Source of the DNA: Candidatus Babeliales bacterium
Lineage (GTDB): Bacteria; Babelota; Babeliae; Babelales; Chromulinivoraceae
Direction of reading: 5' to 3'
DNA length: 64,000 nucleotides
Assembly: GCA_018062405.1 (NCBI GenBank)
Contig: JAGOSF010000007.1
Coordinates: 1-64,000 of the forward strand
The notes under the pieces are model-generated. The model was not told where the DNA came from. It did no database searches and saw only the letters and a list, made by a program, of their open reading frames with translations. Shown one piece after another: positions 222-51,292 of this stretch (position 1 is the first letter of the stretch; every line of letters starts with the position of its first letter). A program made the position numbers and the translations under genes.

Positions 222-3200
222 CTAACTTTCTGAACCGACTACAATGATTCTACCATCTGGGTGAATCAATGCATCATGTGCAACTTGACTCGTCGCACCA
301 GCTGCAACAGCATAGGTTATGTAACCATTTGGACTGTTAAATGTGCTATCCAATGCAAACACAGTCGTTAATCGAGCTATAACAATTCGCTTTGCAAAAG
401 TATCATACGCAACGACAATTGTATTACCATCAGCATCAACCAACAGTCGAGCTAATTGATAGACTGCCGATGTTCCACCACCAAGCATAGTACCTGTTAA
501 CTCTACAGAATTTTGTTCTGTCCCTGTTGTGTCATAATTATTGACCACAATTGAATTACCAGCTCCTGCCAATGTTGAAATTACAGCCGCTGCATACACA
601 TTATTACTACTGTCGACAGCAACTTTCATATTTGCATAATCAGTTCCACCAACACCTGTATAATAATCAGCAATATTTGTTGTTGCTGTAAAATTAGCAT
701 CTAAAGCAGAACCATCTGCTAAATAACGAGCAATTGTAACATAGCTACCAACTCCATAATAATAAGCAAATACAATGTTATTATTCGTATCAATTGCATG
801 CGTATAAATACCAGCAGCTCCAGTATCTGATGATTGAAAACCATTATTACCAAATGAGTTATCCATTTTACCATTCGCTGTATACCCAAGTAACAGACCT
901 GTGTATCCATCAAATGTACCTGCAGCAACAATACGACCATTTGATTGTTGAGCTACAGAATATAATGCTTGACCATCACCAAATGCAACGCCAGAAGGAT
1001 CTCCATTAAATCCACCAAATGATGTATCAAGCGCTTGAGTATCTACATTATATTGTAAGAGTAAAGAACTTGTTGAACTCAATGTTGAATTATAAACATA
1101 TCCTGCAAGAATCGCTTTGTGAACCCCATCAACCGTTGTAAAGGTCACCATGTCACGAACATACTGATTTTCATAATTATTTAACACTATATCTTGGCTT
1201 ATAGTAATATCTAAAGTTCCATCTGTGTTATATTCAGCTACCGTAAATACTGTAGGAGAACCACTAAAACCACCTGCAACTATTTTTCCATTCGCTTGGA
1301 TTGCTATCGAATTTATTGCCGCAGTAGCTGAACCAATAGTAGTTGTAACATAACCTGATCCACTACCAAATCCTGTTGTATTAAGCGTTCCATCTGTGTT
1401 ATATTCAGCTACCGTAAATACAAAAATAGAGCCATTATGACTATACCCACCTGCAACTATTTTTTCATTCGCTTGGATTGCTATAGAAGTTATTGCCGCA
1501 GTAGCTGAACCAATAGTAGTCGTAACATAACCTGATCCACTACCAAATCCTGTTGTATCAAGCGTTCCATCTGTATTATATCGAGCTACCGTAAATACAT
1601 AACTAGAGCCATTATTATTAAACCCACCTGCAACTATTTTTCCATCCGCTTGGATTGCTATCGAAGTTATTATCGCACCAGTACCAATAGTAGTCCTAAC
1701 ATAACCATCTGGAGAACCAAATCCTGCTGTGTTCAAAGTTCCATCTGTATTATATCGAGCTACCGTAAATGCAGAAGTACCAGCAAAACGACTATACCCA
1801 CCTGCAACTATTTTTCCATCCGCTTGGATTGCTATCGAATTTATTTCTGCATTATTTGAACCAAACGCAGTCGTAACATAACCTGATCCACTACCAAATC
1901 CTGCTGTATTCAAAGTTCCATCTGTATTATATCGAGCTACTGTAAATACCCTAGTAGCACCACTATACCCACCTGCAACTATTTTTCCATCCGCTTGGAT
2001 TGCTATCGAATTTATTCTACTAGAACTAACACCAAACGCAGTTGTAACAGAACCTGATCCACTACCAAATCCTGCTGTATCCAAACTTCCATCTGTATTA
2101 TATCGAGCTACCGTAAATAGATAAGGAGCACCAGAACGACTATACCCACCTGCAACTATTTTTCCATCCGCTTGGATTGCTATCGAATTTATTCCACTAT
2201 CATTAGTACCAATAGTAGTCGTAACATAACCTGATCCACTACCAAATCCTGCTGTATCAAGCGTTCCATTTGCATTATATCGAGCTACCGTAAATACCGT
2301 AGGAGAACCACTATACCCACCTACAACTATTTTTCCATCAGCTTGAATTGCTGTTGCATATATTTGTGCGCTAGCACCAATAGTAGTTTGAACATACCCT
2401 TGTCCAGAACCAAATCCTGTTTGCGAAGTCCCATCGATCGTAAACATTTTAAGCATAATTTCAGAAGTTCCAGACCCTGCAGTAGAGTTACCATCAACCG
2501 CAACAAGAATATTTGCATCATCTTGTAATGCTATTGCTTGTGCAACTTGTCCCGAAGCTGCGTTAGCTCCAGATGAAGCAAAGAATGTTACACCTAAATC
2601 GGTACTTGATTGTGTTGATGCACCAAGCGTAATATCGTTGGTCCCATCTGCTTTTGAATCTTGGCAAATCACGGTCTGCGTTGTGTAAGGATCGTTGTAA
2701 GCCATCGAAAGGAATGGATTTACTGTACCATTAGTTTCTTGACCTACCATCGCAATTTGCCCATCGCCATAGACTGCAATCGATTGTAAAGATCGTACTG
2801 TTGCAGCACCATCAAAACTAAATGTCATAATGCCATCGCCACCACCAAACGTGGAATCAAAGGTATACGCTCCAGAACCATTATCTTTAAGACATTCAAC
2901 AAACATTGGGTTTGTCGTTGATTGATAACCTGCAACTAAAACTTTACCATCACTATCACCAATCAATGTTGTAAGCGTCGCTCCTGTCAGCCCACTGATA
3001 TCATATTCTGTTTCTGCAACTACAGCTCCTGTTCCATTTGCATAAGCTTTCACTGCTATTTTATTTGCACCATCATTAATATGCGCAGCAACAACAATAT
3101 TTCCTGATGCATCAAATGCTAAGCGAACTTGAGTTTCATCATCTGCATTTACAATTACACCAGTGATCGTGCCTTCTGTGCCAAATGTTGTATCAACTTG

Positions 3201-6200: not shown

Positions 6201-8741
6201 AACTCCGCCAATATCTGCACCTGGATAACGCGGAAGTTCATACGCTGGAGACCCACCTTCTGTTCCTACAACATTACCAACTAAAGAAACTGTATTTGTT
6301 GCATCAATATATTCAAAACCACCAAACGTAATTGCTCCGTCAGAAGAGATTGCAACACAGTTTGCTTTTCGTTGAGGTGTTGTGCCGTCGGTCGGATTAA
6401 CATCATCATATTTTGTTTTTAAAATACCAGGAGTTGAAGAATACGGTGCAAATGTTGTATCAATATTAAGGTTAGATAAACATCGGCCAACAAAGAAATA
6501 ATTATCATCATACCCCACAAATACGAGTGAATCATTTGAATCAACTTGTAATTGTGTAATGACTGGATTTGATAATAATGAAACTGCGGCTGAAATTGAA
6601 GCCGAAGCAGGAGTTCCTGCGGTTCCATCATTATTATATTTTTGAAATTCTATAGCATCTGTAGATGTATTGACCGTCGCAAAAACAATGATTCTATCAG
6701 CTGCAACAGCAGAACTTGTAATTCCACCTAATTTAGCAGCGCTATAATCTGCAGAAACTAAACCAGTATCGACAATTCCGTCCACATCAAAGTTTGTATC
6801 TAAACCAGAACCACCGGGTAAAATTCTATATATTTTAATATTAGCAGCGGTCGTTGCAATGATATAAATATTATCAGCAATATCAACAACCATGTCTGTA
6901 GCAACAACACTACTAATTTGATAGTAGCCAGTCGTTCCAAAGTTAGTATTTAAAGTACCATCTTGGTTGTACGCATAAACTCTAACATTTCCACCACTCG
7001 TTTGCCCTACAGCTAAAATATTTCCTGATTGTTGTTCACACACACGAATAAAAGAAGTAACCCCAGCTTGAGTTGCAATTGAACCACCATTAAATGTAGA
7101 ATCAAAAGGAAATGACCCTGGAACTCCTGCAGTTGGAACATAACGAGCTATCCACCCTGCAGTTAAACCTGCATTACCACCAACAACTAAAGCTCTACCA
7201 TGAGAATCACAAATTACATCTGCACCATTTGGCTGCCCAATCAAAGCAACTGGAATCTCTAAACCACCAGAAGAATTTAATTCTGCCAATTGAGTATCAG
7301 GAGTTCCTGATGTGTTTTTTGTTAAAACAAAGGTAAAATTTGAAGTTGGTACAGCTTGAATTGCAACAACTTGTGGTAAATCTGATGGTGTTGGCGTTGA
7401 ATCTGTCGGAGAATCGACATACCCAGGAACAGTTCCTGCAGCATTATACGTAACGTCAATACACCCTTGAACATCTGGAAGCCCTGTATATCGAGCAGTT
7501 GCAAAATCAGCATCACTTGTACCTGCTACAACAAACCTGCCATTTGATTGAATCGATAAAGCTCTGCCTGTGTCTGTAGAACTCGACCCAGAAATATCTG
7601 TAACTGTATAACCAGATGTTGTTCCAAAACTAGTTACCAAACCAGAACCATTTGCCGCATAACAAGCAATGACAAAATCTGTATCAACCGTCCCGCCGAC
7701 AACGATAGTGTCATCTGATTGCACAGCTAGGCCATAAGCGGTAGCAACAGTACCACCGAAATTTTGAGCTGCATTATACCCAGAAGAAGCTACTCCAAAG
7801 GAAGTGTCTAAAACACCTGCTGTAGTAAACCGTGCAACGACAGCGTTCGTACCAGTTGTACCTGCAATAATAATTTTACCAGTTGATTGAAATCCAACAG
7901 CATAACCAATATCAGTTCCACCAAAAGATTGAATATTATAACCAGTCGTATTGAAAGTTGTATCTAATATGCCACCTGTTGTAAATCGAGCAACAATTGC
8001 ATCGGTTCCTGCAGAACCAGTCACTACCATTTTCCCATTACTATCCAAAGCAGCTCCATAGCCAGCAAGTGAAGTCGCTGTGATTGATAACATCGCAATA
8101 CCAGCAATTGTTGTATCAGAACCACCGCCACCAACAGCAGCACCGCTATTATAGGTACCTGAGTTCAATGCACCAGCAGAATCGTATGAAGCAATAAAAA
8201 TAGTGGTCCCAGTTGTACCTGTACCTGCTACCAAAATATTTCCGGAATTATCAATAGCAACTGCATTTGCCACATCTGAAGAAGAACCTGGAAGCTGTGA
8301 TTGAATAACATAACCAGGAGTTCCACCACTATTAAACCCCGCTGTATCTAAAGAACCATCGGCTAAAAATCGTGCGACAAAGAAATTTGAATCATTTGAA
8401 CCAACAAGAACAATTTTACCATCATTTTGAATCGCAACGCCTCGAGCAACAGCATTGGTACCAATTGTCTGAGTAACTTTACCGTCGGTACTAAATTCGG
8501 TATCCAAAACACCTGCAATGGTATATCGAACCATGGCCATATTTGAACCACTGGAACCGACGACGACAACTTTGCCATCCGGCTGAACGGCTGATGCATA
8601 GGCGGCGTCAACAGTAGTCGAACCAATATCGGTCGTGACAATACCATCTCCACTAAAACTACTATCTAAAGTTCCTGGCGTAGAACCGAATAAGTTCATA
8701 CTTGAAAGTAAAAATCCCAAAATAAATATCATTTGTTGCAT
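222..8741 (-). CDS. Giant exported delta-60 repeat protein (about 2,839 aa)
   Basis: The protein is a signal peptide (hydrophobic FILGFLLSSMNLFG, then STPG) followed almost wholly by repeats of the delta-60 type. Each unit of about 55-60 residues reads roughly G-x-L-D-x-x-F-x-x-x-G, a variable loop, then a D/N-G-K-I-x-V-x-G strand and a F-x-x-A-R-Y strand. Such repeats are known from large extracellular proteins of delta-proteobacteria and are thought to form beta-propeller-like blades. I chose the ATG at 8741 because AAGGGA lies six bases upstream; a TTG seven codons earlier has no good site. Residues of about 2,110-2,510 hold seven nearly identical units (separate entry). No catalytic motif, anchor or C-terminal sorting domain was recognised, so a surface or secreted adhesion or binding role is only a guess. 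A second such gene lies just upstream. Confidence 0.85.
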   Translation of the reverse strand: MQQMIFILGFLLSSMNLFGSTPGTLDSSFSGDGIVTTDIGSTTVDAAYASAVQPDGKVVVVGSSGSNMAMVRYTIAGVLDTEFSTDGKVTQTIGTNAVARGVAIQNDGKIVLVGSNDSNFFVARFLADGSLDTAGFNSGGTPGYVIQSQLPGSSSDVANAVAIDNSGNILVAGTGTTGTTIFIASYDSAGALNSGTYNSGAAVGGGGSDTTIAGIAMLSITATSLAGYGAALDSNGKMVVTGSAGTDAIVARFTTGGILDTTFNTTGYNIQSFGGTDIGYAVGFQSTGKIIIAGTTGTNAVVARFTTAGVLDTSFGVASSGYNAAQNFGGTVATAYGLAVQSDDTIVVGGTVDTDFVIACYAANGSGLVTSFGTTSGYTVTDISGSSSTDTGRALSIQSNGRFVVAGTSDADFATARYTGLPDVQGCIDVTYNAAGTVPGYVDSPTDSTPTPSDLPQVVAIQAVPTSNFTFVLTKNTSGTPDTQLAELNSSGGLEIPVALIGQPNGADVICDSHGRALVVGGNAGLTAGWIARYVPTAGVPGSFPFDSTFNGGSIATQAGVTSFIRVCEQQSGNILAVGQTSGGNVRVYAYNQDGTLNTNFGTTGYYQISSVVATDMVVDIADNIYIIATTAANIKIYRILPGGSGLDTNFDVDGIVDTGLVSADYSAAKLGGITSSAVAADRIIVFATVNTSTDAIEFQKYNNDGTAGTPASASISAAVSLLSNPVITQLQVDSNDSLVFVGYDDNYFFVGRCLSNLNIDTTFAPYSSTPGILKTKYDDVNPTDGTTPQRKANCVAISSDGAITFGGFEYIDATNTVSLVGNVVGTEGGSPAYELPRYPGADIGGVNYSFGDGGILAIPSGATSDTSMAEYVLPSGKILVVYSVTGNTILEQLTSSYALDTGAFNAGVTPGYVTITGLEYPRQIMVASDGNIYVVGDTSSIMTLAKVSSAGVLDTNFGTAGIKSDANLTLGNVVLEQASGRITVAGYNGTSGIIAGYSPTTGAIDLDFSTSGYFTTGVNAEIIGAAVTTTDKIVYTYRDASNAAAIKQLYSNGSGLDASFGSGTQTLIPSVSQTYQIRLQLAFDGKIVVVAQDSSEHYVARRYTTSGNDDAGPVTVSLGTIGTPYIQDLLALSDGSTLVLGIDDTGNTLEMFKLTSGFALDTNFSYATGFLETGVTNSASGGSDSMSNFLGIDVTSDQGILVIGKAGALGGAFNQVFNSSVVTKVDQNQSTTGLAGELDTTYNPTGANSGYLDMSSELTTDLSTTNQVKSILQLSNNFYYVAADNGTNSYITYFAADDVQQTGFGTTGVLTILSKANVSDMMIAQNGNLIVVGGSGASGSNDGWVKSFNATTGVATSGFSVTDTMDICNAVAQQSNGRILVVGQKGTTNAIVNAYNSVTGALDGTFGVNGAGNIVVGQGILSSILVNSTNDIYLMYRSSVAPSVVVQKVGANGLAISASSTAITNTIAGSSYIAFDQQNNIVAVTVNSSNSIIVENYARTNLATLATLTLTTGITGFTTPIVTSISIDATTGGSNGNVILTGYDSTTNLPFIMRVLADLSGLDTSFNTTGIQTLAVPTATVTKWYDAKINQEGKILVGGSGTIAATVTPYLMQVYGNEFVGQYSLTVSAGTPGTIDANFGTSGVVQLGSLDAGLAGLTAQVVLPILSNGYYYTAFTDGTLVRLTNGAVLDTNFAPAGTGFASSTPAGVYSLFIDGSSRLIAAGTTGGAGWVKRYNAGLSSLDTTFNTNVATALSSLNSLIATVAVEQTLGRYVVAGQLTGPGNGALFAFTNTGEIDTTFNSTLTPGYYDTGVASPIYALLADQFDRLIIAYKNGTGIDIARYTSAGQVDTTFGTEGTITGVIVNADDETQVRLAFDASGNIVVAAHINDGANKIAVKAYANGTGAVVAETEYDISGLTGATLTTLIGDSDGKVLVAGYQSTTNPMFVECLKDNGSGAYTFDSTFGGGDGIMTFSFDGAATVRSLQSIAVYGDGQIAMVGQETNGTVNPFLSMAYNDPYTTQTVICQDSKADGTNDITLGASTQSSTDLGVTFFASSGANAASGQVAQAIALQDDANILVAVDGNSTAGSGTSEIMLKMFTIDGTSQTGFGSGQGYVQTTIGASAQIYATAIQADGKIVVGGYSGSPTVFTVARYNANGTLDTAGFGSGSGYVTTTIGTNDSGINSIAIQADGKIVAGGYSRSGAPYLFTVARYNTDGSLDTAGFGSGSGSVTTAFGVSSSRINSIAIQADGKIVAGGYSGATRVFTVARYNTDGTLNTAGFGSGSGYVTTAFGSNNAEINSIAIQADGKIVAGGYSRFAGTSAFTVARYNTDGTLNTAGFGSPDGYVRTTIGTGAIITSIAIQADGKIVAGGFNNNGSSYVFTVARYNTDGTLDTTGFGSGSGYVTTTIGSATAAITSIAIQANEKIVAGGYSHNGSIFVFTVAEYNTDGTLNTTGFGSGSGYVTTTIGSATAAINSIAIQANGKIVAGGFSGSPTVFTVAEYNTDGTLDITISQDIVLNNYENQYVRDMVTFTTVDGVHKAILAGYVYNSTLSSTSSLLLQYNVDTQALDTSFGGFNGDPSGVAFGDGQALYSVAQQSNGRIVAAGTFDGYTGLLLGYTANGKMDNSFGNNGFQSSDTGAAGIYTHAIDTNNNIVFAYYYGVGSYVTIARYLADGSALDANFTATTNIADYYTGVGGTDYANMKVAVDSSNNVYAAAVISTLAGAGNSIVVNNYDTTGTEQNSVELTGTMLGGGTSAVYQLARLLVDADGNTIVVAYDTFAKRIVIARLTTVFALDSTFNSPNGYITYAVAAGATSQVAHDALIHPDGRIIVVGSES
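1230..2410 (-). repeat. Seven near-identical 171-180 bp intragenic repeats
   Basis: Inside the giant gene the block encoding SIAIQADGKIVAGGYS recurs at about 1271, 1448, 1625, 1798, 1970, 2147 and 2318, a spacing of 171-180 bp that always keeps frame. The copies are almost identical at DNA level, unlike the diverged units elsewhere in the gene. Differences cluster in two short stretches per unit: after TT(T/A)(I/F)G and after GG(Y/F)(S/N). This indicates recent amplification or ongoing gene conversion with two tolerated variable loops. Confidence 0.85.
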
Positions 8742-16525: not shown

Positions 16526-19444
16526 CTAAAAAGCTTGTCCAAGTGTTAAATACCAAACATACGGTGGTTCAAACTCTGGATATTTTCTATCTAATTTAAA
16601 TGATATATCAAAACGCAGTGGACCAATTGGCGTATTGTATCGAAATCCAAAACCAAGACCGCCCAGCATATTTTCTGGAACATCTTGTACAGAATCTTTG
16701 ATTAAAACGCCAGCATCAAAAAAGACTGCGCCTTCGAGCTGATAATAAATTGGAAATCGAGTTTCGAAATTACAATTGAACATAGTTCGACCACCCTGAT
16801 TAACATAATGCCACAAATTTTTTGCTTCAAGCGGCAATCCAGAACTTGGAGCATAAATCGGTTTTGTTAAACGGCCAAGCGGTGGGCAATAATCACGATC
16901 ATACCCGCGAAGCGTATTTGCTCCCCCAAGATAAAAACGATCAATTGGTAAAATTTCATTATATTGCTGATTAAAAATATGACCGATGCGTGTTCGAATT
17001 GCAAAAACAACTTGCGGAGTAAACGGAATATACAAAGCGTATTCGCCCAAAAATTTAAATAAACTTGTCTGATCAACAATATCTGCCATAGCAAGGAGTG
17101 TAATTAAAGCATTGCTACCAGAACGAGGATTGACAACGTTATCAACATTGGTCCACATCAAAGAAGGCTCTGCAAAAAGAAATGCTATTTTTTTTCCGAA
17201 AAATGACGGCTTATAATCAATACTGATTCCAATATCATCGATATCTGCTATTGATACACCCTTAAATTCAATACCAACACTCATACCAACATTGATATTT
17301 TCATACTTTTCTTGTAATCCAAATAAAACACCTTGCTGAGCTGCGTTATAAATCGAAACATCACTACCAATGTACAAAGGCTGCAAATAATGGTTGTCAT
17401 AAATTTTTAATTGAGACCGAATTCGTCGATGAGCAAAAAGCCATGGCATTAAATATTGCATCGAAAAATTTTCATAAAATCTTGTAAAATCAGCTTCGAC
17501 AACAACACGATCGCCAAATTTAAATGGGTTATTTAAAATCAAGGTTCCACCGGCTTTGTAAGAAAAACCTTGTTGCAAAGAAAAGTCTTTACCAACTTGT
17601 TGAGCACCTATTCGAGTTCTTACTTCATACTTATCGGCAGCAATTAATTTTACACCAACAGGAATATGTCCAAGATCATCGGTCTCTTTATGAGAAAAAA
17701 CGTGAACCGTATCAAAAAGTTCTAAGTTTCTTAAATTAGCCATCGAATCTTCTATTTTTTTCTTATCCCAAATTTGCCCTTGCTCAATATTGAGCTCTCG
17801 CTTTAAATATTTAAAGGGAATCTGAGAATTACCAGTCACGACAAATCTACCAAAATGAACCTGCTTTTCATCAAGATGAATTTTCCATACTAATATAATT
17901 CCATCTTCTGTTGAGACAAATTCATATTCAACAATTACCTTGGTGTGGCCAAGATCTTTAAAGTGGGTTATCAACCAATTTTTTTGCGTAGAAATCCAAC
18001 TATAATTAAAAGGAATTGCATCTTTTAACCCACTCAATTGCACAAATGGTTTTTCGAGCAATAATTCTGGGTACCCTTCAATTTCTACCGATTTCAACTT
18101 ACGCATAACCCCTTCATCAAGCGTTAAAAACGCTTTATAATCGACTGTTTTATAATTTTCAGCTTGCGGATAAAAAGGGATAAACTCTTCTTTTACAATT
18201 TTAATATCCCAAAATCCATGCTGCATGTACATCTGCTTTAACATTGAAATTGCCTGAGAAAAAGCATCTCGATCAAAAGGAAGATTGTGCAATGATCCAA
18301 AACATTCTGATTGCAGTTTTTTTGATGGAATATGAAAATTATCCTTAATTTCAACATCTTGCAAAAGAGCTCGTTTACCTTCGTGAATCACGCAAAACGT
18401 TTTATTCTCTTCTTCTTTTACCGAAACTTTAACATCCCAAAATCCTTTTGATTTATACATCGACTCGATTTCATCTGCTAAAATTGCTCCGGGAAAATGC
18501 CATGAAGATTTTCCGTACATCGAAATATTTTCTAAAAAATTTTCTTGCGTAAAAAAATGATTACCCCAAAAAACAAACTCTTTTTTTTCATCAAAAGACA
18601 GATTAAAATTAAGATCAACTTGATGATGATCATAATCAATCATCAAATCGTAGGTAACTTGAGATTGACTAAAACCTTTTTTAGTTAAAAAATGCTTTAA
18701 CTGTGCAATTGCCTTTTCAACCAATTCTTTGGTGTATTTTAATTTAAAAAATCGTTTAATAAATAATTTATGAAGCTGCTGATTAATCAATAATAAATCC
18801 TGCTGAGAAACTTTATCGATCGATGCAATATCAAACTTACAATTCCCAACAGTAAACTGATGACCTTTATGTAAAAACAGATCAACTTTTACCGTTTTTA
18901 AAATCGGATCATAAATAACCTCATCTTCTACTTCAGCTTTAAAACAACCGTCCTGGTAAAATTTTTCTTTGATTTTTTTTAATGAATATTGATGTTTTTT
19001 TTCTTCAAAACATTCTCCTGTCTCCATGATGTAAGCACTTTTATACTTTTCTTTGCCAATCATAGAACCATGAAGTCGAAACGAAGAAAGGACAAATAGA
19101 CCTTCGAGCTTAAAAATTAATCGATGATCAACTGGATAATAGAACAGTTCTATTTTAGAAAAATATTCTTTTTTGCGAAGATAGAAAACTGTCTGCTCAA
19201 GGTCTGCAACAGAAATATGGGACATCGGAACAAGATCGATTAAGTACAACAACTCGTCTTGATCAACTTTAAAATCTGCTTGGATATCAATTGATTTAAC
19301 AAATATTTTTGTAGGCAATGATGTTTTTAAACCAGAAGAATTATGAGTACAATCAACTATTATTTCTTGTCCACATATCCAAGAAGATTGAAAAGCTGTA
19401 AAAAATAAAAATAAAAGAAACTGCACATTTTTTTTAAAGGACAT
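16526..19444 (-). CDS. bamA: Outer-membrane assembly factor BamA (Omp85 family)
   Basis: BamA inserts beta-barrel proteins into the outer membrane. The 972-aa protein has a signal peptide (residues 1 to about 25), then several POTRA-like domains up to about residue 620, including KIFVKSIDIQADF at the first and RFVVTGNSQIPFKYLKREL later. A roughly 350-residue barrel follows. The barrel has the loop-6 motif as NTLRGYDRD and ends in LTLGQAF, the terminal Phe of the beta-signal. It is longer than Escherichia coli BamA (about 810 aa), mainly in the POTRA part. A TamA-like role cannot be excluded, but no second Omp85 gene is in the window. The degenerate acylphosphatase gene lies 93 bases upstream on the same strand. 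Confidence 0.88.
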   Translation of the reverse strand: MSFKKNVQFLLFLFFTAFQSSWICGQEIIVDCTHNSSGLKTSLPTKIFVKSIDIQADFKVDQDELLYLIDLVPMSHISVADLEQTVFYLRKKEYFSKIELFYYPVDHRLIFKLEGLFVLSSFRLHGSMIGKEKYKSAYIMETGECFEEKKHQYSLKKIKEKFYQDGCFKAEVEDEVIYDPILKTVKVDLFLHKGHQFTVGNCKFDIASIDKVSQQDLLLINQQLHKLFIKRFFKLKYTKELVEKAIAQLKHFLTKKGFSQSQVTYDLMIDYDHHQVDLNFNLSFDEKKEFVFWGNHFFTQENFLENISMYGKSSWHFPGAILADEIESMYKSKGFWDVKVSVKEEENKTFCVIHEGKRALLQDVEIKDNFHIPSKKLQSECFGSLHNLPFDRDAFSQAISMLKQMYMQHGFWDIKIVKEEFIPFYPQAENYKTVDYKAFLTLDEGVMRKLKSVEIEGYPELLLEKPFVQLSGLKDAIPFNYSWISTQKNWLITHFKDLGHTKVIVEYEFVSTEDGIILVWKIHLDEKQVHFGRFVVTGNSQIPFKYLKRELNIEQGQIWDKKKIEDSMANLRNLELFDTVHVFSHKETDDLGHIPVGVKLIAADKYEVRTRIGAQQVGKDFSLQQGFSYKAGGTLILNNPFKFGDRVVVEADFTRFYENFSMQYLMPWLFAHRRIRSQLKIYDNHYLQPLYIGSDVSIYNAAQQGVLFGLQEKYENINVGMSVGIEFKGVSIADIDDIGISIDYKPSFFGKKIAFLFAEPSLMWTNVDNVVNPRSGSNALITLLAMADIVDQTSLFKFLGEYALYIPFTPQVVFAIRTRIGHIFNQQYNEILPIDRFYLGGANTLRGYDRDYCPPLGRLTKPIYAPSSGLPLEAKNLWHYVNQGGRTMFNCNFETRFPIYYQLEGAVFFDAGVLIKDSVQDVPENMLGGLGFGFRYNTPIGPLRFDISFKLDRKYPEFEPPYVWYLTLGQAF

Positions 19445-30406: not shown

Positions 30407-30488
30407 TTTTTAGATCTGAAAAAGTTGTATACAAAGTTAAAATAGTTTCATTTTTTAATGACATGTTTTGTTCCAAATGGAGAAGCAA

Positions 30489-31895
30489 ATGGTTCAAATT
30501 GATACAAAAGTACAAAATAAAAAAAACTCTCTCCTTCAATCCCCACGGACGTATAATGAAATTGTTCATTATTTAGATACGCACTGGAGCACAACAACAA
30601 ATCTTGTTGCTATAAGCCAACTTGATGAATGTTTTGATTTTGCATCTAAAAAATTAGATATAGCAATGGTATCAGGAACAAGCGGAAAAAGTACAACTAT
30701 TCACTATACTTGTAAACTTTTTCAAGAAGAAGGTTTAAAAATTGGTGCGTTTTATAGCCCTCATATATTTTTATACAATGAGCGCCTGACCATCAACAAT
30801 GAACAGATTTCAAATAATGCTTTTACAGACCTTGCAAACAAAGTCATTCAAACCGCAGAAGATAAAAAAATAGCCGCATCAACAAAAGATATTTTAACGA
30901 TGATGGCTTTTTTATTTTTTAAAGAAAATAATGTTAACTTAGCTATTTTCGAAAATTCAGGAACATTTTCTATCGATCCTGTTCTATATTCAAATGTTAA
31001 AATAGCAGCAGTTACACGATTAATGCCCAACACAAGTCATGACGATATCCTAGCAGCCTTTCATAACATTATGTCACCAATGACATCAACCAGTTATTTT
31101 GTAGCCGCTGACCAAAACAAACAAAACTTACAAATCATGCATCAACTTGTCGAAGCTCAAGGTAGCAACTGGTCAATGCCAATTCGTAAATTAGCACCAC
31201 TTGCTTACCCTTTTGAACAACTTCATGGTCGATGTGCAGCGCTTGCAGAAAGAATCGCTCATATTTATAGTGATAATTTTTTAAATAAAAATAAAGAAGG
31301 CATTATCAGCGCAAGTCTTTTAAATAAACCAAAAGGATTACGCGGACGTCCAACTTTAGAAGCAAAAAAAGCTTTGGAAAATTATCCTAGTAAATCACTT
31401 GAACAATTTTGGAGTACGACGACAACAACATTGCAATCTCGATTTCAGTTATTAACGGACAAGAAACCTCTTGTTTTGCTTGATAATGCGGATAATCTTG
31501 ATGCATTAAATAATGTTTTTCTTGGTTTTAGATTACTTGCTTACAAGCAACAATTTAAAGGTGTTTCTCTCATTCTTGGATGTTACGAAGGTCAATTTGA
31601 AGATGATGAATTTATTAAACAAATTCGTTATTTTATAAAAAAGACATCTGCTTCGATCTCTTTTTGCCCAATAAAAATTACTCCTAGTGAAAACACTCAC
31701 CAAAGTTGGGATGCACAAAAAATAGCAATTCTTGCAAAAGCTGTAAAAATTAAAGCAAAAGCTTTTAAAGATTTCGAAGAAGCTTTTCTTGCTGCAAAAA
31801 CCGCAAATGATGATCGTAGTAATCTGATTATTATTACGGGCAGCCAAGCAATCGTTTCAGAATATTTACACTACAAAGAAGAAACAGCTGCATAA
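30489..31895 (+). CDS. folC: Folylpolyglutamate synthase-like Mur ligase
   Basis: FolC adds glutamate to folates (and dihydrofolate synthase activity is common in bacteria). The 468-aa protein has the Mur-ligase P-loop VSGTSGKSTTIHYTCKLF, the FolC-type YSPHIFLYNERLTIN and a C-terminal ligase domain with LILGCYEGQFEDDEF and IITGSQAIVSEYL. Usual residues such as the folate-loop pattern are diverged, so substrate is uncertain. I chose the ATG at 30489 after GGAGAAG; two other in-frame starts lie within 21 bases upstream. Its stop overlaps the start of the AtpR-like gene (TAATG), tying it to the ATP synthase genes. Confidence 0.8.
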   Translation: MVQIDTKVQNKKNSLLQSPRTYNEIVHYLDTHWSTTTNLVAISQLDECFDFASKKLDIAMVSGTSGKSTTIHYTCKLFQEEGLKIGAFYSPHIFLYNERLTINNEQISNNAFTDLANKVIQTAEDKKIAASTKDILTMMAFLFFKENNVNLAIFENSGTFSIDPVLYSNVKIAAVTRLMPNTSHDDILAAFHNIMSPMTSTSYFVAADQNKQNLQIMHQLVEAQGSNWSMPIRKLAPLAYPFEQLHGRCAALAERIAHIYSDNFLNKNKEGIISASLLNKPKGLRGRPTLEAKKALENYPSKSLEQFWSTTTTTLQSRFQLLTDKKPLVLLDNADNLDALNNVFLGFRLLAYKQQFKGVSLILGCYEGQFEDDEFIKQIRYFIKKTSASISFCPIKITPSENTHQSWDAQKIAILAKAVKIKAKAFKDFEEAFLAAKTANDDRSNLIIITGSQAIVSEYLHYKEETAA

Positions 31896-37335: not shown

Positions 37336-39063
37336 TTAATTAACAGCGCAAGGAGCTGGCATATCAAGATTTAATAATTCATAAATATCAGAACCAAGCA
37401 CCGTCCCTTTTTCTATTAAAAGTTTTGCTATACTTTCAATATCATGCTTATGTTCATTCATTAATTGTTTGCCACGCTCAGCACACTCATTAATAATAGC
37501 TTGAACTTCTCGTTCAATTTGAGTTGCAATATCATTAGGCATTTGATGAGATCGATTAAAACCAATATTTCGTAATGTATCTGACATTCCATAGACCGCG
37601 ACCATATCATAGGCTAAAGCATGCGCTTTTTCTAAATCATTTGAAGCACCAGTACTTAATCCCATTCCAAAAGCTTCTTCTGCTAATCTTCCGCATAGAA
37701 CTATAACAATCTGATTTTTCATATCATCTTGTGTATATTCATAAGATTCATACAATGGCAACATACGCATGACACCCAAAGTATTTGATCGTGGAGTAAT
37801 TGAAACTTTATGAACAATATGCGCTTTATCACAAAGAATCTCTGCCATAGTATGACCAGCTTCATGAATAGCTGTTTTCCATTTTTTATCATGGGATTGT
37901 TGCATACCAGTAATTTCACGACCAAGCGTAATATGATCAAATGCTAATTCAACGTCCTGCATAACAACTACCTGCCGCCCTGCATTAACAGCTAAAATTG
38001 CAGCTTCATTAACAAGATTTGCTAACTCTGCACCAGAAAAATTTATCGTCATTTGAGCAATTCTATTAACATCAAATTCTACAGCCGTTTTCACAGATTT
38101 TACAGCAATCTGCAATAATTCAATTCTATCTTTAATAGCAAGTTTAGAAACTTCTACTGTACGATCAAATCGACCAGGTCGAACAATTGCAGCATCAAGT
38201 AAATGAGCTCGGTTTGTAGCTCCAAGTACAATAACTGGATATTCAGATTTATCAAGGCCATCCATTTCTGCAAGCAAAGCATTAATTGTCTGATCATGCT
38301 CTCCATTACCACCAGAAGAAGAACGCTGTAAAGCTACTGCATCAATTTCATCAATAAATATAATACAAGCGCCATATTTCGAAGCTAAATTTCGAGCTTT
38401 TGCAAATAGACTTCGTACTCGCATTGCTCCAACACCAACATACATCTGAATAAAAGATGAACCATTAATACTAATAAAGGGACAACTAACCTCTCCCGCA
38501 ACTGCTTTTGCCAATAAAGTTTTACCATTACCTGGAGATCCATTCAGCAAAATTCCTTTTGGAACGTGAGCGCCAATATTTTTATACATTTTTGGATTTT
38601 TAATATAGGAAATAATATCTTGCATATCAGCTTTAGGACCAGACATACCAGCAACACCAGACAAATTAAAATCGATTTGACCTGGATAATAAATCTGTAA
38701 ACCTTCTTGCTCCATATTTGCATCTATCGCTTTCATTTGCACATAAATTAAAAAATACATATATGCTGCAAACGCTGCAATAGTACCAATCGTTGCAGTT
38801 GATCTATCTATAAAAGAATGAATCCCTTCTTTTGATTGAAAAAATTTAAAATCATTTTCTATTTTATCTGCCTTTTCAAACAGAACTGCTTTTAAATTAC
38901 TGAAAAAAGATGGGTCTTCTTGATGAACTGTTTTTTTAATCGCATCAATAGCCTTGCAAGCTTCATATAATTCAATATCAATATCAATAGACTTAAGATT
39001 GAAGACAGCCATTGTTAGTAAGCTCAACAATACAAAATTTTTTCGTGGTTTAAAAAAAACCAT
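37336..39063 (-). CDS. FtsH-like membrane AAA+ metalloprotease
   Basis: FtsH proteases pull membrane or soluble proteins through an ATPase ring into a zinc protease chamber. The 575-aa protein has an N-terminal membrane segment, a second one at about residues 91-110, Walker A GSPGNGKT (175-182), Walker B IFIDE (235-239), the second-region motif RPGRFDR, and zinc site HEAGH (400-404). The third-ligand motif appears as TGASNDLEKA. The N-terminal part between the two membrane segments is charged and longer than usual. Residue details fit FtsH but it is divergent, perhaps a second, specialised copy. It follows the membrane MutS-like gene by 12 bases and precedes the exported gene at 36591. Confidence 0.88.
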   Translation of the reverse strand: MVFFKPRKNFVLLSLLTMAVFNLKSIDIDIELYEACKAIDAIKKTVHQEDPSFFSNLKAVLFEKADKIENDFKFFQSKEGIHSFIDRSTATIGTIAAFAAYMYFLIYVQMKAIDANMEQEGLQIYYPGQIDFNLSGVAGMSGPKADMQDIISYIKNPKMYKNIGAHVPKGILLNGSPGNGKTLLAKAVAGEVSCPFISINGSSFIQMYVGVGAMRVRSLFAKARNLASKYGACIIFIDEIDAVALQRSSSGGNGEHDQTINALLAEMDGLDKSEYPVIVLGATNRAHLLDAAIVRPGRFDRTVEVSKLAIKDRIELLQIAVKSVKTAVEFDVNRIAQMTINFSGAELANLVNEAAILAVNAGRQVVVMQDVELAFDHITLGREITGMQQSHDKKWKTAIHEAGHTMAEILCDKAHIVHKVSITPRSNTLGVMRMLPLYESYEYTQDDMKNQIVIVLCGRLAEEAFGMGLSTGASNDLEKAHALAYDMVAVYGMSDTLRNIGFNRSHQMPNDIATQIEREVQAIINECAERGKQLMNEHKHDIESIAKLLIEKGTVLGSDIYELLNLDMPAPCAVN

Positions 39064-39074
39064 AAGCAGATTCC

Positions 39075-39103
39075 TTTAATTAAACAAATTCGCTTCTTTT
39101 GCC
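39075..39103. repeat. 29-bp direct repeat, copy 2 (3' end of mutS-like gene)
   Basis: Perfect match to 36562-36590. This copy covers the last eight codons and stop of the mutS-like gene and the start of the leader of the FtsH-like gene, including its AAAGG ribosome site. Confidence 0.9.
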
Positions 39104-40812
39104 ATATCCATAGCAACGTTCACCGTGCTTGCACCAGGACTCAACGTAAATGGATAGACCAATTTGCCTTCGGCATTTTTTATTGGAGCATCAGCTTTAT
39201 AGTTCATTAAACCAATATTTTGCTTACCAAGCTCTTTCAATGCATCAAAGTGTGTTGCATAAATAAACAGCGTTTGATGGTAGCTTGCTATCTTTTTAAT
39301 AAAATCATACGCAATCTTTTCACCAGCTTCTGCTGCTGTTCCGGTAAATAATTCATCAAGCGCAAAAAACAACTTTTGATTTGTTGGCAAGTTTTTAATA
39401 ATTTCAAGCAACTCTTGAGCACGTTTTACTTCTGAAGCAAATAGCGATAAGCCATTAATCAAATCATCTGAAATATTTAAATACGATAAAACAACATCAA
39501 ATTGCGTATATTCAAAATGAGATGCAGCTGCAACACCATACGTTTGACTCAGTACAATATTTTGTAAAATCGCACGAATCGAAGTTGTTTTGCCACCAGC
39601 ATTTGGACCAGTTAAAATCACGTGCTGATCTTGGATCAAGCTATTTGTCACTGCATGTGGCACTAACACGTTCCAGAAATCTTTTGAAATAACTTTTGGT
39701 TGAGCAGATCTAAGTACCTGAGAAAAGCAGAACTGTCGTTGACTATTTTGAGCCTCTATCATTTTTGTCGCAATCGCATTACATGCATCCATTTCTGCAA
39801 TTGATGCAAAAATTTGCGCTAACTGATTTTCATTTTCATACAAATAATATAAATATGTATGAACTGCTGATGGATCAAAACAATAATCAGTTTCATTTTG
39901 ATAACGACTTACCTTTAAACCATCTACCAAAGCAACACCTGCATTATCAGTGATTAAGCTCATTTTAAATTGCGTTTGAATATTCTCTTCAATTGACAAA
40001 AGTTCAAGATCTTCTGCAATATAAATTAATTGATTAAGAGCATGCATTTTTGATCGTTTTTCACCAGCTTTAACAAGGCCATCAGCATAGACGAAGGTAA
40101 TAAAAGCTGTGATTAAACCAAAATATAGTCCAGAAGCTATCGCATCGTAATTTCCTTTATAAACCACACCACCACAGTAACCTGTCGCACCCCACAGTAC
40201 TGGAAGCGCCAAAGACAACTCAAGAAATTCAACAGTCTTTGGAATTCGACTGGTATTCATAAATTTAACAAAACCATACAAAGGATGATTCGCATCTTTA
40301 AGCTGCTGTAATTGCGCAAGCTCTGGACATGTTTTATTTTTAAAACTAGTTGACATCAAAGTAATGATATCTTTTTCATATGGTACAACTGATTGCAATA
40401 TTGCTTCAACTTCTGATTTCAGATTAGGATTTTCTACTAACTGCCGAATAATATTTGATCGTAATGCAACAATGCCAGATTTATCAGTTGGGCTCACTGG
40501 TCGTGATAAAGTTTCACGTAAATAGGCTTTACCCATAACTGTTTTTGCCTGAAAAAAATCAGCTATTTCTGAAACATTTAAATCTTTATCGAGATTCGTA
40601 GCTTGTGTATAGACAATCGGTGCAACCTTACCCGGAACAACACTATGGTTAATTTGCGCCATAATGTTGATAATTTTATCATGGCCAGAATTATCGTCTA
40701 AAACTGGTGCCACAAAGCTTTTTTCATCAACTTCAGCAACTTTTGAAATTAGTTCAGGACTGGTAAAAAATAGAGATACCAGTAAAAAATACTTTAAATT
40801 TTCTTGATTCAT
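39076..40812 (-). CDS. Membrane-associated MutS-family ATPase
   Basis: The 578-aa protein has the MutS core but not the N-terminal mismatch-binding domain. A hydrophobic N-terminus (KYFLLVSLFFTSPE) looks like a signal or anchor. Lever/core helices follow, then two membrane segments at about 197-217 and 226-245. The ATPase part has Walker A TGPNAGGKTT (401-410), a LSLFASEVKRA signature and Walker B LFFALDELF (481-489). Similar MutS-like proteins with membrane helices are known from Bacteroidetes, with unknown role. It leads an operon with the FtsH-like protease. A DNA-repair role is doubtful; a membrane-linked ATPase is inferred. Confidence 0.8.
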   Translation of the reverse strand: MNQENLKYFLLVSLFFTSPELISKVAEVDEKSFVAPVLDDNSGHDKIINIMAQINHSVVPGKVAPIVYTQATNLDKDLNVSEIADFFQAKTVMGKAYLRETLSRPVSPTDKSGIVALRSNIIRQLVENPNLKSEVEAILQSVVPYEKDIITLMSTSFKNKTCPELAQLQQLKDANHPLYGFVKFMNTSRIPKTVEFLELSLALPVLWGATGYCGGVVYKGNYDAIASGLYFGLITAFITFVYADGLVKAGEKRSKMHALNQLIYIAEDLELLSIEENIQTQFKMSLITDNAGVALVDGLKVSRYQNETDYCFDPSAVHTYLYYLYENENQLAQIFASIAEMDACNAIATKMIEAQNSQRQFCFSQVLRSAQPKVISKDFWNVLVPHAVTNSLIQDQHVILTGPNAGGKTTSIRAILQNIVLSQTYGVAAASHFEYTQFDVVLSYLNISDDLINGLSLFASEVKRAQELLEIIKNLPTNQKLFFALDELFTGTAAEAGEKIAYDFIKKIASYHQTLFIYATHFDALKELGKQNIGLMNYKADAPIKNAEGKLVYPFTLSPGASTVNVAMDMAKEANLFN

Positions 40813-49039: not shown

Positions 49040-51292
49040 TTAGTTATCTAAAGTATTAGCGTCCCTATAAGAATAGAGATTAGCATATCCATCTACGGCA
49101 TCATTAGCAGCAGAAGTATCCACCTGAGCTGCAAGCTGATATCCTAATGTATTTTTCAACCTTCTTTTCATGTTTTGTGTGTAAGTCATTGCTTGAGGTT
49201 TTCCGGTAATTTGCTCCAGCGAAACTATCGTGCTTGGCATTTTGTCTATTCCTGATTTACCAAAATCATAAACATATTGATTCATCACCGTCGATAATTT
49301 TAATGGCGGGTATTTCAAACTGATTTTGCCAGAAATAATTGCATTCAAACAACCTTTACCATAACTTGTTAACTGCTGAGTTGTTACGTCAATCAGCTTT
49401 GCATTTCCATACTTCAACAAAAATAGTTCAACTCTTTTTTTCACCGCATCTTTATTTTTCATGTACCCTGCAAACCAATCTTCTACAACTTTTTTCAGGG
49501 CAACTGAAACATCTGCTCCAAGTGAAGCTGTTTTAGCATTATCAAGATAACTGTTCAACAAGGTAATAAGATTATTAAAACTTACCAATGCCGGGGCTAA
49601 AACATAATAAAACCGACCAAAACCCAAACCTTTCGGCATAAAAATATCGGTACCTAGAAGATACCCAATAACTTGCAACTCTTTATCTTCTATAACACCT
49701 TTGCTCACGCTCAAATTACCCATGAGCGTTGCAACCTTTTCTTCTGCTGTTAAAACAGGGTCTATGTTGCCAGCAACTCCTTTTACATCAAGACCATCTT
49801 TATCATCTTTTTGCATCACAAAAGGAGCGTTGACAGCTTTTTTGTATTCATTCATAACATCTTTACCCAAGGACTGTTGTGCAACTTTTCGTACAAAATT
49901 TTCTGCAATTGCATCATCGGTTGTCACAACATAAACAAAATAAACAAACTCATCAGATTGGCTTAATAATGGTCGAGTTAGATTCCACGAAACGGCTTGA
50001 CCTGGTACAACCTTTGAACAAACTGGATTATCACCGCCAAGATACACAACCCATACTTGTCCGAGTAAATCGATGTATCCATCAGCTGGCGAATATTCTG
50101 TTTGCTCAACAGCCTGATACCAAAACGTCGATGGACAAGGTGTTAAATCCCGAGACCTTGGAGTGCTTGCAATGTCATAATTTCCTGGCATTAATCCTTG
50201 CAAAGCAACCTGCATTTTTTTATCTGCTTGCTGAAAAATTTCGATGGTGTAAGGTTTGCCTTCAAATCCATCTGACGGCAATTTTAAGGTCTGAAAATCG
50301 TCATACTTTTGAGATATAGGATTATAAGCCGCAAAGGTTATCGTATTTGGTCGCAATGAAAACATTGGAGGTGCTTCACTTTTTTCTGTAGCATCGGTTG
50401 AAGTTACATTATTTTCATCTGCAAGTTTCTTTGATGCATCTGCCGGAACAGTTTTCGCTGTTAATGTAACAGCACCTACTCCAGCTTGAATAACAACATT
50501 TCCAGTTTCAGATGAAGCTTTTTTGTCATCTTGAGCATTGAAAGATTGACTACCTGCTACAGCCAACTTCATCGTTCCTGCAGAATCTTTGCCTGATGTT
50601 GATTTTTTTTCTTGTGGCGTTGGCAGCCCCAATGAATTATGAGAGTATTTTTCTACGGTAAAACTATAAGGCTGCGTTCCATAAGTCAACGAGACTTTTA
50701 CATTGACTCCAGAACTATTAAAAAAATTAAGAACCGATAGTTGTGAACCAATCGATACCGAACCTTTTTTTGCACTATCAGTTTCAGAAGGATTTTGATA
50801 TCCAACAATTTCAACTTCTGGATCATAAGCAAAATCACCTTTAGAAAAATTTCTTCTGGTGTAGGTATGATAATAATAAACATTTGGATCATTTTTTTCT
50901 AAAGGAAGTTGCGTTAAAAACTGTGTATAAATTGGATGTTCATGCGCTGGTGAACGATCAGAAATATAAAAATGAAAATAATAATCTTGTTTATGATACG
51001 CTACTTTTGAAGGATACCCGTCAGCTTCAAAAATAGAGGGTAACTTTTTTCTACCAAAAAATGCTTTTGCGCTTCTAAAATATCCACCCATGAATGAAGC
51101 GATACCTTCTTGTTCGACATACATTGGAATATGAGCATCATTCCAAACTTCATAACTATAAACATACCCATGAGGAGGGACACCAAAAGATTCTCCCATG
51201 CCTTCGATCATGGCTTTTATATCTAATCCAAAGCTTAATGAAGAATATAAAGACACCATAATTGATAATGCAATATACGAACTTTTCTTCAC
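49040..51292 (-). CDS. Large exported protein of unknown function (750 aa)
   Basis: The start is GTG at 51292, preceded by AAAGGAGATC, one of the best ribosome sites in the window. A signal peptide (YIALSIMVSLYSSLSFG) follows. The mature protein is predicted soluble: an N-terminal part with PPHGYVYSYEVWNDAHIPMY and SNRSPAHEHPIY-like His/Tyr patches, a Ser/Ala/Lys-rich linker at about 230-310, then a mixed domain and a helical C-terminal half. No catalytic or binding motif is recognised. It may be secreted or periplasmic. It converges on the ATPase gene and is 78 bases downstream of the PBP1A gene. Confidence 0.65.
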   Translation of the reverse strand: MKKSSYIALSIMVSLYSSLSFGLDIKAMIEGMGESFGVPPHGYVYSYEVWNDAHIPMYVEQEGIASFMGGYFRSAKAFFGRKKLPSIFEADGYPSKVAYHKQDYYFHFYISDRSPAHEHPIYTQFLTQLPLEKNDPNVYYYHTYTRRNFSKGDFAYDPEVEIVGYQNPSETDSAKKGSVSIGSQLSVLNFFNSSGVNVKVSLTYGTQPYSFTVEKYSHNSLGLPTPQEKKSTSGKDSAGTMKLAVAGSQSFNAQDDKKASSETGNVVIQAGVGAVTLTAKTVPADASKKLADENNVTSTDATEKSEAPPMFSLRPNTITFAAYNPISQKYDDFQTLKLPSDGFEGKPYTIEIFQQADKKMQVALQGLMPGNYDIASTPRSRDLTPCPSTFWYQAVEQTEYSPADGYIDLLGQVWVVYLGGDNPVCSKVVPGQAVSWNLTRPLLSQSDEFVYFVYVVTTDDAIAENFVRKVAQQSLGKDVMNEYKKAVNAPFVMQKDDKDGLDVKGVAGNIDPVLTAEEKVATLMGNLSVSKGVIEDKELQVIGYLLGTDIFMPKGLGFGRFYYVLAPALVSFNNLITLLNSYLDNAKTASLGADVSVALKKVVEDWFAGYMKNKDAVKKRVELFLLKYGNAKLIDVTTQQLTSYGKGCLNAIISGKISLKYPPLKLSTVMNQYVYDFGKSGIDKMPSTIVSLEQITGKPQAMTYTQNMKRRLKNTLGYQLAAQVDTSAANDAVDGYANLYSYRDANTLDN

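Follow-up and report, generated by a model that had tools for sequence, protein, structure and literature searches.

A probably young seven-bladed propeller with diverged top loops inside a giant delta-60 repeat protein of a Dependentiae bacterium

The window analyzed here (the whole stretch of 64,000 bases, corresponding to bases 1-64,000 of contig C8 in a source genome of 1.23 Mb and 14 contigs) encodes a giant protein of delta-60 repeats, P0001, which contains a block of seven closely similar tandem units. We favor, with a probability of about 0.6, the view that this block is a young propeller which arose by amplification of a single blade, or arrived as a cassette, and the top face of which was diversified by selection, probably for binding. 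Under this scenario, the amplification or the arrival of the cassette would have taken place where two repeats of an exported multi-propeller protein meet and would have yielded an additional complete seven-bladed delta-60 beta-propeller; the blades would retain a common frame, with selection diversifying the D-A and B-C loops, that is, the top face.

The seven-unit block of P0001

In profile searches with the whole protein, P0001 exceeds both curated cut-offs of the delta-60/DUF5122 family (TIGR02608, 544.9 bits against a cut-off of 76.5; PF17164, 293.5 bits against 27). In the Pfam search, DUF5122 is the only profile to exceed its cut-off: no NACHT match was found in P0001, and membership in the WD40 family (PF00400) was rejected at 20.4 bits, below the cut-off of 27. 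The seven diverged units of the N-terminal set of P0001 share a mean identity of 36%. Dependentiae are bacteria that live inside protists, and we take the bacterium that carries P0001 to be a relative of Chromulinavorax destructans, a protist parasite of this phylum. According to the accessible part of the source, strain SeV1 of C. destructans belongs to the phylum Dependentiae and is a pathogen of the flagellate Spumella; the word "propeller" does not occur in that part (PMC6561590).

The block consists of seven tandem units of 56-59 aa each within one intact ORF (aa 2117-2521 of P0001, window 1200-2414, minus strand), and the seven consecutive similar units described in the earlier note are thus real; the array lies where that note had placed it (1230-2410), its actual extent being slightly greater. 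Pairs of units are 66-86% identical in residues and 77-89% identical over aligned bases. Tandem Repeats Finder assigns the array scores of 1351-1501, and its one further entry for the 64 kb has a score of 59. By one and the same measure, the mean identity between units is 69% in the block vs 29-50% in the other seven-unit sets of the genus and the order. Unit 1 is the most distant unit and the outlier of the block, being only 66-71% identical to the rest. The statement that the units differ only in two loops goes too far: of the 59 columns of the unit alignment, 25 are invariant, and the 12 loop codons (columns 14-18 and 37-43, picked for their variability) carry half of the non-synonymous differences (230.7 of the 457.9 pairwise differences among block units). 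Nor does every unit have loops of its own: the first variable loop is identical in units 6 and 7 and the residues of the second are identical in units 1 and 7, a pattern suggestive of mosaic loop exchange inside the block.

Comparison with homologues shows that the block was inserted in frame, between two repeats. In all eight homologues that have both flanks, namely five paralogues on contig C12 and three ORFs of genome G002, the alignment with P0001 runs to about aa 2120 and resumes at about aa 2522, without the block; the two matched stretches range from a 3-nt overlap to a distance of 33 nt. The boundaries were taken from these matches, and the MAFFT alignment across the insertion, which was forced through the block, is unreliable. 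Not judgeable for the insertion were one G002 right-flank match that starts at a contig end and the homologue in G001, a genome of the same genus, where the match is confined to aa 11-1655 plus one short segment. What is observed within the genus is the presence or absence of all seven units together, not an altered unit number, and the insertion starts and stops where standalone delta-60 proteins do.

Contig C12 carries five tandem same-strand delta-60 giants of 2,883-3,372 aa (L029-L031, G000:C12:110448-161988), which lack the seven-unit block. Contig C8 begins directly past the stop codon of P0001, and C12 ends (G000:C12:162349) just short of a same-strand delta-60 paralogue; the two contigs may be neighbors in the genome.

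Seven is the usual number of delta-60 units. Exactly seven are present in all nine delta-60 ORFs of 414-572 aa (from the same genome, G019 and G028), and a 973-aa delta-60 ORF of G001 yields eight unit matches. Among 77 runs of at least five units (80 loci from many phyla, with shorter runs, often fragments of weak detection, left out), 40 have seven units, none has eight, one has nine and six have 12-14; at Dependentiae loci, 33 of the 47 runs have seven units and two have eight. One seven-unit match in G002 (L173, G002:C120:46-1179) contains an internal TAA and is perhaps a decaying propeller.

Table 1. Features of the window, with coordinates in window positions
Feature	Coordinates	Strand	Basis or remark
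P0001, delta-60 multi-propeller ORF, 2,846 aa	222..8762	-	ORF and translation; profile matches
Likely start ATG (codon 8) and signal peptide of P0001	8682..8741	-	translation judged by eye
N-terminal set of seven diverged delta-60 units of P0001 (aa 40-426)	7485..8645	-	profile matches
Inserted seven-unit block (aa 2121-2521)	1200..2402	-	absent from 8/8 homologues with both flanks
Unit 1 (aa 2117-2172)	2247..2414	-	unit listing and alignment
Unit 2 (aa 2173-2231)	2070..2246	-	unit listing and alignment
Unit 3 (aa 2232-2288)	1899..2069	-	unit listing and alignment
Unit 4 (aa 2289-2347)	1722..1898	-	unit listing and alignment
Unit 5 (aa 2348-2405)	1548..1721	-	unit listing and alignment
Unit 6 (aa 2406-2464)	1371..1547	-	unit listing and alignment
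Unit 7 (aa 2465-2521)	1200..1370	-	unit listing and alignment
Variable loop 1, example (D-A loop, TNDSG, unit 2)	2193..2207	-	between model strands E69-72 and E79-86, reaching the first residues of E79-86
Variable loop 2, example (B-C loop, RSGAPYL, unit 2)	2118..2138	-	between model strands E92-99 and E105-111, reaching one residue of each
P0002, delta-60 protein adjoining P0001, 1,811 aa	9042..14477	-	TIGR02608, 237.8 bits
Putative outer-membrane protein beside P0002, candidate partner, 467 aa	14774..16177	-	no match in Pfam or NCBIfam profile searches; phylum-wide family
BamA-like outer-membrane assembly protein	16526-19444	-	below equivalog cut-off; upstream of the 467-aa ORF and the delta-60 genes
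AAA/peptidase M41 protein and MutS domain V protein, side by side	37336-39063 and 39076-40812	-	Pfam matches
Large ORFs, 1,121 and 750 aa	42224-45589, 49040-51292	-	no Pfam match
Large ORFs, 566 and 475 aa	23688-25388, 30468-31895	+	no Pfam match

Predicted fold and divergence of the loops

Structure prediction, proposed in the earlier note as a check, supports the idea that the seven blades make one beta-propeller. The AlphaFold2 model of the block (24 sequences) contains seven strand groups (pLDDT 95.2, pTM 0.93), and its best solved match is the propeller of CylK (Z 45.1, rmsd 2.2, 346 residues aligned, 19% identity), which covers residues 9-410 of the 414 in the model; accordingly, the block is predicted to be a complete seven-bladed beta-propeller with four-stranded blades. 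A 786-aa context model contains the same propeller at aa 2120-2519, flanked by low-confidence linkers; the pTM of this model is 0.60, so its domain packing is not trusted, and its confidence is lower across the C-terminal remainder, which might form a single propeller split by the block. In the block model, the variable loops connect strands and do not form strand cores, and the topology of the propeller implies that the D-A and B-C loops would share the top face. In CylK, the top face is formed from blade-connecting loops and loops within blades (PMC8916777, in the part available).

Synonymous and non-synonymous differences at the loops were also counted, another check named in the earlier note. 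With the loops picked for variability, loop pN is 0.511, and the framework has a pS of 0.149 and a pN of 0.111. Loop pN is accordingly 3.4 times framework pS in the block vs 0.39-1.64 times in other delta-60 arrays; the framework pN/pS of 0.75 implies weak overall constraint. The framework pS of the block is the lowest among all sets measured, with no other array below 0.28, and among the arrays of its repeat family (TIGR02608, PF17164) that were seen and measured, the block appears to be the younger expansion. Low synonymous divergence in the frame combined with high non-synonymous divergence in the loops fits amplification followed by loop diversification, as had been suggested.

Because the loop columns had been picked for their variability, the test was repeated with loops defined by the strands of the model, and the excess persisted, in a weaker form (top-loop pN 0.404 vs pS 0.153 elsewhere, a ratio of 2.6 vs 3.4), in alignments where indels in the loops can inflate pN. 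By the same definition, pN is 0.063 in the bottom A-B turn and 0.159 in the C-D connection. Parsimony counts 34 changes at codon positions 1 and 2 of the 11 top-loop codons (22 sites) vs 20 at position 3 of the 45 other codons (p = 5.5e-6), all of them between units of one gene in one genome and representing few independent events; inside the loops of the block alone, the comparison of positions 1 and 2 with position 3 yields p = 0.055. Column permutation of the block alignment gave 0 of 20,000.

The excess of the loops over the framework implies that either selection favors loop change, or conversion homogenizes the frame while selection separates the loops. Neutral drift, in which the top loops are merely unconstrained and the structure preserves the frame, appears unlikely. 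It is in line with the old delta-60 arrays, the loops of which are nearly always more diverged than the frame, most of these arrays being saturated at synonymous sites, so that their loop ratios are little informative. Among the 14 unsaturated arrays (framework pS < 0.5, duplicates of one contig counted once), loop pN is at least as high as framework pS in 11, with the exceptions in L061, L071 and L158; conserved loops are also found in L045 and L062, among the more saturated arrays. Unconstrained sites should, however, remain at or below the synonymous rate, which the block loops exceed 2.6-3.4 times. The all-sites difference of the loops, 0.442 (280.0 of 633.0), was never reached in 1,000 runs of a neutral simulation at the framework rate (best-window mean 0.226, maximum 0.294), and a doubled rate just reaches it (maximum 0.446). 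Homogenization of the frame by gene conversion, with old loops and a synonymous divergence of the frame that understates the age of the units, is a more serious contender, although we still doubt it. Such conversion would be compatible with the recurrence of loops between block units and with the observation that in genome G048, 26 of 36 units are nearest to a unit of another protein. Conversion tracts would, however, homogenize the loops as well unless selection kept the variants, and hence selection would still be needed; moreover, the search of the same genome for a DNA donor of the block units returned only matches of 33 and 47 bp.

Alternatively, the propeller may have arrived complete from another bacterium instead of being amplified at its present site, which strikes us as no more probable than drift. 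Matches in other phyla reach 47% identity, whereas identity to the two standalone seven-unit proteins encoded in the same genome is only 31-34%; against this origin, the block does not differ from the remainder of the gene in base composition (0.391 and 0.392), Dependentiae relatives match about equally (45.6%), and the block units are far closer to one another than to any outside unit seen. By far the least probable explanation is an assembly artefact, with a wrong unit count or a chimera, even though the tandem repeats lie near a contig end (window base 1 is the contig start) and comparable fungal arrays are, according to the available part of PMC12222747, not assemblable from short reads: inside the block there are 15 repeated 51-mers but no repeated 60-mer, the open frame is single, and seven units are the norm of the family. 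A diversity-generating retroelement was rejected because the assembly (estimated 94.6% complete) contains no match to the reverse transcriptase profile PF00078.

Under the preferred reading, a young propeller with a selected top face, loop change in the block is probably driven by selection rather than by a mutation hotspot. P0001 would act at the cell surface or outside the cell, and the top face presumably binds something variable, be it a host, competitor or self ligand. In our view, an exported protein uses the block as a binding module, the top face of which has been adapted to a changing partner; antigenic variation, in keeping with the immune evasion considered in the earlier note, is a possible role.

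Relation to known propellers

The literature that we found hardly mentions the delta-60 repeat family. Highly repetitive beta-propellers amplified from single blades have blades with a median identity of more than 60% (Pereira and Lupas, 2022, PMC9218822), and the block, in which the median of the 21 pairwise unit identities is 0.71, is one of them by this measure. As far as the accessible part of that paper goes, the block shares with these propellers a family-preferred blade number and blades that are closest to each other, and differs from them in its setting, as a cassette within a long series of older delta-60 units, and in the concentration of its changes on a single face; neither DUF5122 nor delta appears as a word in that part of the main text. 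The closest solved fold, the C-terminal seven-bladed propeller of CylK (7RON), has a top face that serves as an interface according to the available part of PMC8916777, where CylK is described as an enzyme with a calcium-binding N-terminal domain, whereas for the block no catalytic role is proposed.

The nearest parallel to the block is found in the WD40 propellers of HET-D and HET-E, members of the HNWD family of Podospora anserina (PMC1805685, PMC2873952, PMC12222747, each in the part accessible). The likeness lies in highly similar tandem blades, in the concentration of change at the d-a loop and the b-c turn of the top face, where the selected change of the HNWD family sits (PMC1805685), and in repeat exchange, which in the block is only suggested; the excess non-synonymous change at the corresponding loops of the block is seen between units of one gene only. 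In contrast to the block, which is made of bacterial delta-60 repeats, the HNWD proteins, as these sources describe them, are NLR receptors of fungi; their repeats are of the WD40 type, their recognition partner is known, and their repeat number changes. The NACHT/NLR architecture with WD40 repeats is an HNWD feature, and in P0001 neither component gives a Pfam match above its cut-off.

In the Dependentiae genome G048, six ORFs (L181-L183) have delta-60 frames that are almost identical, and certain loops recur among them, one B-C loop being present three times across two ORFs. The nearest neighbor of a unit belongs to the same protein in 10 of 36 cases vs 5.7 expected (p 0.07, over the first 28 codons, without gaps), which implies that units of different proteins resemble each other almost as closely as units of the same protein. 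By analogy with the fungal HNWD family, the pattern resembles a repertoire of blades that is shared among genes by exchange.

A putative outer-membrane partner and biological implications

Delta-60 genes of Dependentiae tend to adjoin one subfamily of a putative outer-membrane protein, represented in the window by the 467-aa ORF beside P0002. Homologues of this protein are present in 101 of 101 genomes of the phylum. Outer-membrane barrels end in an aromatic residue; several homologues have a signal-like stretch at the start and such a residue at the end, and the copy in the window lacks the terminal aromatic residue. A delta-60 ORF is present in 8 of 18 regions with high-scoring homologues (two overlap, hence 7 of 17), which were drawn from genomes that have delta-60, vs 0 of 18 regions with low-scoring homologues; in 7 of these 8 regions (6 of 7 distinct ones) the delta-60 ORF lies directly beside the homologue or overlaps it, at no more than about 60 nt. 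Four pairs, about 8-364 nt apart, are found in the same genus. Loci of the closest subfamily, often abutting delta-60 genes, are L200, L202, L204, L207, L210 and L211. This pairing provides a starting point for testing how such proteins come to the surface.

A broader and rather improbable proposal, which we offer tentatively, is that the delta-60 propellers of Dependentiae might be a bacterial counterpart of the fungal HNWD repertoire, with blades amplified and exchanged, top loops diversified under selection, and the propellers displayed with a dedicated outer-membrane protein encoded alongside and recognizing changing partners. The block itself would clearly illustrate how an older multi-propeller protein can gain an entire new propeller, as a cassette of seven blades that has diversified mainly on one face, and would do so in a phylum that has received little study and some members of which parasitize protists. 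If the loops vary between isolates, the block would offer a bacterial system for following how a binding surface arises and diversifies.
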